A stretch of 20,610 bases of DNA from positions 1 to 20,610 of the IMG/VR virus record IMGVR_UViG_3300005841_000091; one strand, written 5' to 3'. Positions 9,051-11,598 of the stretch are shown here, piece after piece (the stretch's first letter is position 1; each line of letters begins with the position of its first letter). Origin of the DNA: a virus. Below the pieces are notes generated by a model. That model did no database searches and was not told the origin of the DNA. It saw only the letters and a program-made list of their open reading frames with translations. The position numbers and the translations under genes were made by a program.

Positions 9051-9116
9051 GCTGCCCTGGTCAATCGGCTTTAGGCCAGGGCAGCATCTAAACAGCGAGT
9101 CTAGGCACTCAGTTTA
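9051..9116 (+). other. Two tandem RNA hairpins in an 88-base leader
   Basis: GCTGCCCTGG (9051-9060) pairs perfectly with CCAGGGCAGC (9076-9085) around a 15-base loop. A second hairpin follows at once: TAAAC (9089-9093) with GTTTA (9112-9116), enclosing GAGT (9097-9100) with ACTC (9107-9110). Neither is followed by a T-run, so they are not standard intrinsic terminators. They sit between the early gene ending at 9044 and the one starting at 9133; processing, protection or translation control are all possible. Confidence 0.5.
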
Positions 9117-9132
9117 ACACAAAGGGAATTAC

Positions 9133-9384
9133 ATGCACACAGCAAATGAACGACTCGAACTACTCAAATGGGTATCCGCAAACATGTCGAAGGTAGAGCG
9201 CCTTCAAACCGCAATCTCTAAGCTAGCTGACAGAGTGGTGACAGAGCCTGCCTTGCAAGACATTGAGATATGCAGTGTATTAAGCAAGTTACAGCACTTA
9301 GGCGACAGGATGAGTTATCTGGATAAAGAGATAGATAGCCAGCATTTTGTGAACGAAGGAGTCTTGAAGATAAAGGATAAATAA
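9133..9384 (+). CDS. 83-residue helical protein, unknown function
   Basis: ATG 9133 has AAAGGG six bases upstream. The protein is a run of amphipathic helices (LELLKWVSANMSKVERLQTA, then DIEICSVLSKLQHLGDRMSY) with no membrane segment or enzyme motif. It is flanked on both sides by structured non-coding stretches, unlike the tightly packed genes around it, so it may be expressed separately. I recognise no family. A small binding or inhibitor protein is compatible with size and composition but not demonstrated. Confidence 0.6.
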   Translation: MHTANERLELLKWVSANMSKVERLQTAISKLADRVVTEPALQDIEICSVLSKLQHLGDRMSYLDKEIDSQHFVNEGVLKIKDK

Positions 9385-9393
9385 GCGTATAGT
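9364..9393 (+). promoter_or_regulatory. Possible promoter for the replication genes
   Basis: TTGAAG (9364-9369), an 18-base spacer and TATAGT (9388-9393) lie at the end of the 83-aa gene. Matches are four of six and five of six. A start near 9400 would give a leader of about 150 bases containing all the hairpins described downstream. Confidence 0.4.
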
Positions 9394-9400
9394 CACTGAA

Positions 9401-9437
9401 GGCCATAAAGAAGAAAGGCCCGTCCTGAAACGAGCCC
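9401..9437. other. Competing short hairpins in the replication leader
   Basis: GGCC (9401-9404) can pair with GGCC (9417-9420), but the second copy also belongs to a stem formed by 9416-9423 and 9430-9437. On the plus strand this second stem has one C-A mismatch. On the minus strand it pairs fully with G-U wobbles and is followed by a T-rich stretch, resembling a weak leftward terminator. Confidence 0.3.
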
Positions 9438-9474
9438 TCTAAACACTGTAGCAAGGTTAGAGTACCTCAACCTC

Positions 9475-9510
9475 AGGACAAGTTGCAAGGGGTAGACCTG
9501 CAAATGTCCT
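9475..9510 (+). other. Long hairpin in the leader of the replication initiator gene
   Basis: AGGACA (9475-9480) pairs with TGTCCT (9505-9510), TTGC (9483-9486) with GCAA (9500-9503), and AGG (9488-9490) with CCT (9497-9499), giving 13 pairs with small bulges and a six-base loop GGTAGA (9491-9496). The loop bases GGTAG are complementary to CTACC at 9509-9513, which overlaps the stem end and the anti-Shine-Dalgarno stretch downstream, so a loop-tail pseudoknot is possible. Confidence 0.5.
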
Positions 9511-9512
9511 AC

Positions 9513-9546
9513 CTCCTTGTTGGATCGTCATGACTACTAACAGGAG
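9513..9546 (+). promoter_or_regulatory. Hairpin hiding the ribosome-binding site
   Basis: CTCC (9513-9516) and TGTT (9518-9521), separated by one bulged T, pair with AACA (9539-9542) and GGAG (9543-9546); G9522-T9538 and G9523-C9537 extend the stem. GGAG is the ribosome-binding site of the gene starting at 9553. Folding would therefore lower its translation. Confidence 0.5.
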
Positions 9547-9552
9547 ACAAGA

Positions 9553-10260
9553 ATGTCTATTGAATATATCGCCCACGAATCCGTTCACAACCACCCTTTC
9601 ACCATCGTTGACAATGAGTTAATTAACTCAGACTTAGCCCCAGAAACATGCTTCATGCTCATCTACATGTGTAGTAAGCCACCTAAGTGGAAATTCCATG
9701 ATCACATGCTAATGGAGAGACTTAAGTGTGGCAAAGATAAACTTCAGAGGATGCGAAAGGAAGCTCGGGAAGCGGGGTACATGAAGCTTCAGACCATACC
9801 ATCCGGGGCTTCTGACGGTAAGTTCAATGGCACCTACTACCTATTCTCTTGCCGTCCAATATTCAAATCCACCGAGAGCGGGCTTTTCCGACTGTCGGCA
9901 AATCCGACTCCCGGTAAACAAGGCTCTGAAGTTAGTAATACTGAAAGACATAATAATACTGAAAGACTAATAAGCAGCACAGATTCAGAGTTAGAAAAGG
10001 AACTTATAGAGGTAGGATACACCGAAGCATCGGCCAAGATGTTGATCCAATGTCATGGCGTGGACAAGATGCGAGAGGGGGTAAGAGCAACACACAAAGA
10101 GTCAGTCGTGAATCCACGAGGATTCCTCAACACTTGGTTAGCTTCACGAAGAGGGGTGACTGTAGGCGCTGCTAATGAGCAACATGTCTTGAACCTTGAG
10201 CACAGACGACTAGAGGAAGCGCTAAGAAAGAGCGAACAGTTACTTTGTGGAGCAGTGTAG
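9553..10260 (+). CDS. Replication initiator / helicase-loader-like protein
   Basis: This is a 235-residue protein whose ATG has AGGAG about seven bases upstream. Residues 15-80 resemble the winged helix-turn-helix found at the N-terminus of phage replication proteins: FTIVDNELINSDLAPETCFM, then LIYMCSKPPKWKF, then a recognition-helix region with CGKDKLQRMRKEAREAGYMK. The linker (about 105-145) is low-complexity and rich in Ser, Thr and Asn. The C-terminal part has helices and NPRGFLNTWLASRRG, a motif often seen in helicase-loading proteins. It sits directly before the helicase gene (adjacent stop and start), as lambda O-like or DnaD-like initiators do. Origin binding is inferred. No iterons were noticed in the gene. 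Confidence 0.65.
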   Translation: MSIEYIAHESVHNHPFTIVDNELINSDLAPETCFMLIYMCSKPPKWKFHDHMLMERLKCGKDKLQRMRKEAREAGYMKLQTIPSGASDGKFNGTYYLFSCRPIFKSTESGLFRLSANPTPGKQGSEVSNTERHNNTERLISSTDSELEKELIEVGYTEASAKMLIQCHGVDKMREGVRATHKESVVNPRGFLNTWLASRRGVTVGAANEQHVLNLEHRRLEEALRKSEQLLCGAV

Positions 10261-11598
10261 ATGTATAACAAAACCATTACGTTGCCTCAAGACGCGCTTG
10301 TTCGTGCAGATAGCTACATGGGTGTGGATACTGGACTTATCGAGTCACCAGGCTTATCTGGGTGGGAATCAGCGGCATCTTTGGAGCCTACCAAAGAGAT
10401 TTGCTTAGCTGATAGCGCTACCAACGCAGGTTCACTCTACCTTTATGAGCTTGGACTAGGTCTGCTATGGCCTCCCGCCTTTACAGACGATAAGCATGAG
10501 TGGATAGAAGCTGAGTTCGAGAACTTAAAGCAGTACGACACGATTTACCTGTGCTTTGCCAACGATGCGGTGGGTCAAAAGTGTGCAGCTGAAGCGTCTA
10601 GGAGATTAGGGGCTTCACGCTGTCCTTTAGTGCGTCTTCCTCATATCGATGCTCAAACTTGCTTGCAACAAGAGGTGCCCAAGGAAACCATACAACAGTG
10701 CTTCAAGGATGCAAGACCAATCGATCCAGCTGAGCTGAGACGTGCATCAAGCTACCTGGATTCGATAAAGCAGGGAATAAACCATGTCACTGATGTGCAG
10801 ATGGGTTATGCGCTGCCGTGGGATAAGGCCTTTGGCACAATCAACTTTCGTCCTGGGGAGCTAACTGTTTGGACTGGCATTAACGGCCATGGAAAGTCGC
10901 AGCTGCTTGGCCATTTGATGCTCGATCAGCTTAAGCAGGGTGCTAACGTGTGTATCGCTAGCATGGAGCTGGCCCCAGTGAAGACCTTGATCCGTATGAC
11001 TCGCCAAGCAGCTGCCATGAAAGCACCTACGGACGAGCACATCGACCGAATCTGCCAATGGTGGGGAAAGAAGTTGTGGCTCTTTGATCTGGTGGGAACA
11101 GCCAAGGCAGACCGCTTAATCGAAGTCTTCAAATATGGCTGTCAGCGATATGGCATAGACGTCTTTGTGATTGACTCCCTGATGAAGTGTGGGTTTGCTG
11201 ACGATGACTATTCTGGACAGAAGAGATTCTTAGATCAGATCGCTGACTTCAAGAACCAATTCAATTGCCATGTGCATGTAGTAGCCCATCCCAAAAAAGC
11301 TCAAGACGAGAACACTGCGCCAAGCAAGTTAGATGTGAAAGGGGTTAGTGGCATAACAGATCTGGCAGATAACTGCATGAGTGTTTGGAGGAACAAACCA
11401 AAGGAAGACTTAGTCAACTTTGCCAAGAACAATGGCACGGAGCCTTCCCCAGAGATAGTGGCGAAACCAGATTGTCACCTTAGGTGCTCTAAGCAGCGCT
11501 TCGGAGATTGGGAGGGCGTCATAACGCTGTGGTTTGATAAAGATTCTTTGCGTTACCAGGAGCGAATGACTGACAGAGTGAATCCATTTGTTAAATAA
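10261..11598 (+). CDS. Replicative DNA helicase, DnaB/Twinkle-like, with decayed Toprim domain
   Basis: This 445-residue protein begins immediately after the previous stop. The RecA-like helicase domain (about 185-440) has Walker A GINGHGKS (206-213), H1a SMEL with Glu236, Walker B VFVIDS with Asp305, H3 HVHVVAH ending at His343, and H4 GVSG (361-364) with Arg377 as likely arginine finger. It should form a hexamer and unwind DNA at the fork using NTP. Residues 45-125 resemble a Toprim fold (YDTIYLCFANDAVGQKCAAE), but the usual Asp-x-Asp reads Ala100-x-Asp102 and the expected Glu motif reads LADSAT. No zinc-binding primase domain is present, so primase activity is probably lost. Confidence 0.88.
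   Translation: MYNKTITLPQDALVRADSYMGVDTGLIESPGLSGWESAASLEPTKEICLADSATNAGSLYLYELGLGLLWPPAFTDDKHEWIEAEFENLKQYDTIYLCFANDAVGQKCAAEASRRLGASRCPLVRLPHIDAQTCLQQEVPKETIQQCFKDARPIDPAELRRASSYLDSIKQGINHVTDVQMGYALPWDKAFGTINFRPGELTVWTGINGHGKSQLLGHLMLDQLKQGANVCIASMELAPVKTLIRMTRQAAAMKAPTDEHIDRICQWWGKKLWLFDLVGTAKADRLIEVFKYGCQRYGIDVFVIDSLMKCGFADDDYSGQKRFLDQIADFKNQFNCHVHVVAHPKKAQDENTAPSKLDVKGVSGITDLADNCMSVWRNKPKEDLVNFAKNNGTEPSPEIVAKPDCHLRCSKQRFGDWEGVITLWFDKDSLRYQERMTDRVNPFVK

Follow-up and report, generated by a model that had tools for sequence, protein, structure and literature searches.

The 168-nt leader of the putative replication initiator gene of this virus can be folded into two mutually exclusive sets of helices, one of them hiding the Shine–Dalgarno (SD) sequence of the gene and the other leaving it available, and in the energy model the leader shifts between both sets with the position of the 5' end of the transcript. 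On the basis of these folds, we tentatively propose that the leader could be a regulatory two-state switch for translation of the initiator; a regulatory switch and incidental folding are about equally likely.

The window analysed was the whole virus record, 20,610 bases classed as linear. As the reading frame preceding the initiator gene stops at 9384, the leader spans 168 nt up to the start codon. The features that define this locus are the following:

9553–10260, + strand: replication initiator or helicase-loader-like gene, 235 aa, with PHROG matches, directly 5' of the helicase gene
10261–11598, + strand: replicative helicase (C-terminal part of primase/helicase), 445 aa, matching phrog_239 (1.3e-82) and Pfam AAA_25 (2.2e-9)
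9543–9546, + strand: SD sequence GGAG of the initiator, read from the sequence, 6 nt 5' of the ATG at 9553
9364–9393, + strand: promoter-like TTGAAG-18-TATAGT, which would place the RNA start near 9400

The PHROG matches of the first gene (“DNA binding protein”, 2.3e-6; “DnaD-like helicase loader”, 2.5e-5; “replication initiation protein”, 6.8e-5) are weak but consistent, and its product is probably akin to phage DNA-binding, DnaD-like loader or replication initiation proteins. Promoter-like sites of the type found at 9364–9393 were not more numerous than in shuffled sequences. The helicase is shorter than its aligned relatives (445 aa vs. about 545–630), with the N-terminal primase-like part missing. 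In addition, two AT-rich, iteron-like tandem repeats of 17 nt, 94% identical and with a spacing of 18, lie at 9933–9967 inside the initiator gene; lambda-like origins lie within the initiator gene and have their iterons there. A perfect 10-bp inverted repeat (GCTGCCCTGG/CCAGGGCAGC), without a T run, was also found in the intergenic region at 9051–9085.

Sequence reading and folding of the leader yielded the following helices:

9475–9510, + strand: hairpin H, 13 pairs with the loop at 9491–9496, −15.8 kcal/mol in the fold of 9475–9512
9513–9516 and 9518–9521 with 9539–9546, + strand: SD-hiding stem S, from sequence reading and folds
9422–9428 with 9473–9479, + strand: helix P1, GTCCTGA/TCAGGAC, with an inner hairpin; it excludes H
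9486–9495 with 9509–9519, + strand: helix P2, 10 pairs with a bulged T9514, −12.9 kcal/mol for 9486–9519
9390–9395 and 9397–9399 with 9528–9536, + strand: possible closing helix P0, in the minimum free energy structure of 9385–9600
9545–9558, + strand: small hairpin AGACA/TGTCT covering the last bases of the SD together with the start codon, in the minimum free energy structures, independent of the state of the leader

The pairs of H, P1, P2, and S were each asserted by script, except for the inner GG/CC of H, two pairs for which the fold is the only source; the remaining strands of this hairpin are AGGACA (9475–9480) with TGTCCT (9505–9510) and TTGCA (9483–9487) with TGCAA (9499–9503). When 9475–9552 was folded alone, exactly H and S were obtained, at −26.9 kcal/mol. 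An earlier note on this DNA had described both elements from the letters, and both are present as described, with the correction that the TGTT of the SD-hiding stem lies at 9518–9521 and its bulged T at 9517. The same note had proposed that GGTAG (9491–9495), in the loop of H, contacts CTACC (9509–9513). These sequences are indeed complementary, but such a contact is impossible on the full hairpin, whose stem already contains C9509 and T9510 and leaves no linker nucleotides, so a pseudoknot on the 13-pair hairpin is ruled out. The pairs belong instead to the nested helix P2, formed by CAAGGGGTAG (9486–9495) with CTACCTCCTTG (9509–9519), which occupies the anti-SD strand and excludes both H and S. 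Thus, the idea of two exclusive folds hiding or freeing the SD held thermodynamically, with P2 and not a pseudoknot as the competitor of S. The P1 region (9422–9480) folds at −19.6 kcal/mol, and P0 had probabilities from 0.03 to 1.0 depending on the transcript ends. The segment ACCTCCTT at 9511–9518, identical to the anti-SD of 16S rRNA, was also considered as a mimic of the 16S rRNA 3' end, a candidate that was rejected, as the alignment was not significant (6–23% of shuffles score as high). On the − strand, an AAGGAGGT (9518–9511), with no copy on the + strand, precedes a possible 36-codon frame.

The balance between the two helix sets was followed in constrained folds and partition functions for transcripts with different ends. 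For 9385–9570, P1 plus P2 reached −52.6 kcal/mol vs. −46.2 kcal/mol for H plus S, and for 9450–9570, where the 5' arm of P1 is absent, P2 gave −30.6 vs. −33.1 kcal/mol for H plus S. P1 and P2 dominated in transcripts starting at 9133, 9385, or 9400, and H and S in those starting at 9430 or 9460. With starts at 9385 and 9400, the probability of P1 was 0.96–1.0 in all prefixes but 9385–9512, that of H was 0–0.05 with the exception of the same prefix (0.76), and that of S was 0–0.05 in all prefixes but one; from 9133, P1 had a probability of 0.65–0.96. The exceptions for S were the prefixes ending at 9552, in which it rose to 0.75 (start 9133) and 0.89 (start 9400) with P1 present. For starts at 9430 and 9460, S ranged from 0.44 to 0.99 once the SD was included, and H from 0.82 to 1.0, except for the 3' end at 9540 (0.07–0.09). 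The probability that the SD is paired with the leader increased from 0.13 to 0.75–0.78 on 5' shortening.

As P1 and P2 mostly form and S is usually at 0–0.05 in transcripts from 9400 or earlier, the default state looks open, and the hidden state is predicted to prevail chiefly in transcripts that lack the 5' part. Even in long transcripts, the small local hairpin keeps the SD end and the start codon partly paired. The closed and open leader of the earlier note is recovered as two states in the model, with control located at the 5' arm of P1 (9422–9428), outside the region to which it had been assigned. In contrast, the suggested sensitivity to temperature was not borne out by the model, and an RNA thermometer was rejected: the unpaired probabilities of the SD bases of 9400–9585 were nearly constant from 20 to 50 °C, with some rise for 9385–9585.

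According to the mechanism that we propose, the leader would act in cis, tuning translation of the initiator through the two exclusive helix sets. In the ON state, P1 would hold 9473–9479, so that H is blocked, and P2 would capture the anti-SD strand (9509–9519), leaving GGAG free for the ribosome. The OFF state would be triggered when the 5' arm (9422–9428) is missing or occupied, be it in a shorter or processed RNA or through an antisense RNA or a bound protein; H would then form, P2 would be broken, and 9513–9521 would close over the SD. The pairings and their shift with the 5' end are seen in the sequence and the model, whereas where the transcripts begin, what would trigger the change, and whether initiator synthesis responds are inferred for this scheme. 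If it is true, the commitment of the phage to DNA replication would be gated by RNA folding at the translation of its initiator.

About as probable as this switch is that the fold is incidental, as could be found in any 168-nt RNA, and that an ordinary SD and the weak local hairpin at the start codon determine how the gene is translated. Opening the SD in the complete leader costs as much as in the average shuffle (4.84 vs. 4.82), and the cost was only mildly high in shortened leaders (4.5–15% of shuffles). Opening requires 7.5 kcal/mol or more at five of the 19 starts examined in the window, among which the initiator ranks third. The SD stem alone (9511–9552; z −1.64, 6% of shuffles) is not unusual either, and the fold of the whole leader (9385–9552) was matched by 7% of shuffles. 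Against an incidental fold, the segment 9400–9519 ranks second by z (−3.9) among 347 windows of 120 nt in a scan of the + strand with 25 shuffles, to which five windows around the leader, including this one, had been added; its neighbouring windows have z values of −1.3 to −2.1. In addition, the change in SD pairing on 5' shortening was equalled by just 1.3% of 400 dinucleotide shuffles in the same direction and 3.5% in either direction. None of 500 shuffles was as stable as the segment of hairpin H or as 9422–9520, which contains P1 and P2 (z −3.7), both segments having been chosen after folding. These chance tests were all designed post hoc, once the fold had been seen, and the shuffle values are modest. 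Even if the switch is not real, the case shows that a strong-looking SD stem can disappear once the remaining leader is folded along.

Conservation, as far as it was searched, also fits an incidental fold. DNA searches of phages, viral contigs, and genomes found no related leader, so that no covariation could be obtained for it; the 69 contigs with a 15-mer of the leader shared only about 16–25 nt with it, and none was a usable relative. No relative of the initiator was found by a pattern search of viral and genome contigs, which can miss moderately diverged proteins, and tblastn gave only distant partial matches. The record whose portal protein comes closest (67% identity) has the helicase and no detectable relative of this initiator; its own initiator-like gene follows the upstream reading frame almost without a gap. 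Beside the helicase that the first scan placed closest, the initiator-like gene likewise almost abuts the upstream frame, so that a leader is nearly absent in both of the nearest relatives examined. Neither a tRNA nor a known RNA family was detected in the window (no Rfam match at E up to 1). Regulation by the leader is thus plausible, with no support from conservation.

A less probable explanation is translational coupling, based on a short frame within the leader:

9504–9533, + strand: possible leader ORF, MSYLLVGSS, from ATG to TGA, spanning the strands of H, P2, and S, with an SD-like AAGGGG at 9487–9492

Ribosomes translating this ORF would pass through the anti-SD strand (it covers 9509–9521) and unfold it, and the terminating ribosome would be left 9 nt before the SD, as the ORF stops at 9533. 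A precedent exists in reinitiation following leader peptides, an established idea (PMC4833913). However, the SD-like sequence is separated from the ATG by 11 nt and, when the full leader folds, lies buried in P2; moreover, a comparable ORF appeared in 4.5% of shuffles.

It is quite improbable that an antisense RNA, about 145 nt long and covering the leader, controls the initiator level as in plasmid copy control. Such an RNA would run from the first to the second of two candidate sites bracketing the leader:

9590–9563 (near), − strand: promoter-like site
9439–9414, − strand: terminator-like hairpin

The two sites are ordered and oriented as required, but sites of these kinds are no more numerous than in shuffles (9 vs. 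7.7 and 4 vs. 6.5). Least probable of all is a role of the inverted repeats as DNA, for instance within a replication origin or in the binding of a protein, since the leader adjoins the initiator gene but holds no repeat array, the sole nearby tandem repeat being that at 9933–9967 within the gene.

Returning to the two-state switch, leaders at other loci with the same helicase were also analysed. Around 60 helicase loci had a candidate gene just upstream, with calculated leader lengths from overlap to more than 200 nt, gene starts having been called by a simple rule. A motif not listed in Rfam, AGGAAGTTT..GGCTTCCTGCC, was found upstream of the helicase at ten loci, and an int-alpA-like core at fourteen, some of them near-identical in both cases. 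Both motifs lie directly 5' of the initiator gene in the sampled cases, the genes downstream being initiators or loaders by PHROG. A conserved structured RNA, either int-alpA or the unlisted motif, is thus often found at the pre-initiator position in other phages with this helicase, a point in favour of the switch. The int-alpA-like elements reported by Rfam scored 30.9–33.8 bits, just below its threshold of 35.8, and five others (L097, L099, L102, L103, and L122) were unreported at E up to 0.1. The leader of the window contains neither the int-alpA core nor the pattern of the unlisted motif and, having no sequence similarity to the latter, it appears to lie outside it.

The unlisted motif (L064:1460, L065:1457, L069:1397, L070:639, L072:1399, L073:1414, L078:1390, and L116:1391), found before phage replication initiators, consists of a pseudoknot-capable AGGAAG-TTT-RAAGG-CTTCCT-G-CCTT and a TTTGAAT/ATTCAAA hairpin. 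A further hairpin has the constant loop GCTTTGGCTTA and a stem that covaries in L065, L069, L070, L072, and L078; no Rfam family was reported for L069 and L072 at E up to 1. The int-alpA (RF02996) core, whose family name is scarcely mentioned in the literature searched, was found just 5' of varied phage and prophage genes, including homing endonucleases (loci L211, L212, L214, L215–L294, L335–L370, and others). Of 67 int-alpA elements that differ in their loops, 50 have a loop complementary, over at least 5 nt, to the SD region of their own gene, against 12 expected and no more than 20 when the loops were permuted 500 times. In 34 of the 67, the loop complements an upstream partner as well as the SD region (3.8 expected; at most 10 in the permutations). 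The elements are related and so not independent. This complementarity suggests that int-alpA RNA may be a cis translational switch.

We consider it unlikely that the leader is a genuine two-state regulator run from 9422–9428 and also one of several unrelated RNA regulators, such as int-alpA and the unlisted motif, at this spot of the helicase module. If true, unrelated RNAs would have repeatedly taken the position before the initiator.

Among known systems, erm-type attenuators have alternating leader helices that are closed by default and are triggered by a ribosome stalled on a leader peptide. Common to both are overlapping segments that form two exclusive helix sets, one of them hiding the downstream SD, which in this leader is seen in the energy model. 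In contrast to the erm type, this leader is mostly predicted to be open, apart from the hairpin at the start codon; its candidate for a leader peptide is a 9-codon ORF with a poorly placed, buried SD. In the repZ leader of IncIα/IncB plasmids, there is an SD-hiding stem and a short upstream ORF, and control is exerted by a pseudoknot and an antisense RNA. The leader described here resembles it as a structured initiator leader in which a stem can hide the SD and a short ORF precedes the gene, but the pseudoknot proposed here is sterically excluded (9509–9513 overlaps the stem at 9509–9510, with no linker), and for a candidate antisense RNA, the − strand offers promoter- and terminator-like sites of kinds that are no commoner than by chance. 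Finally, the window differs from int-alpA in lacking a match to this family and in having another core and topology; as in this leader, int-alpA-like RNAs stand directly before the initiator in phages with the same helicase, and in a typical int-alpA, the loop can pair with a downstream partner or with the SD region.
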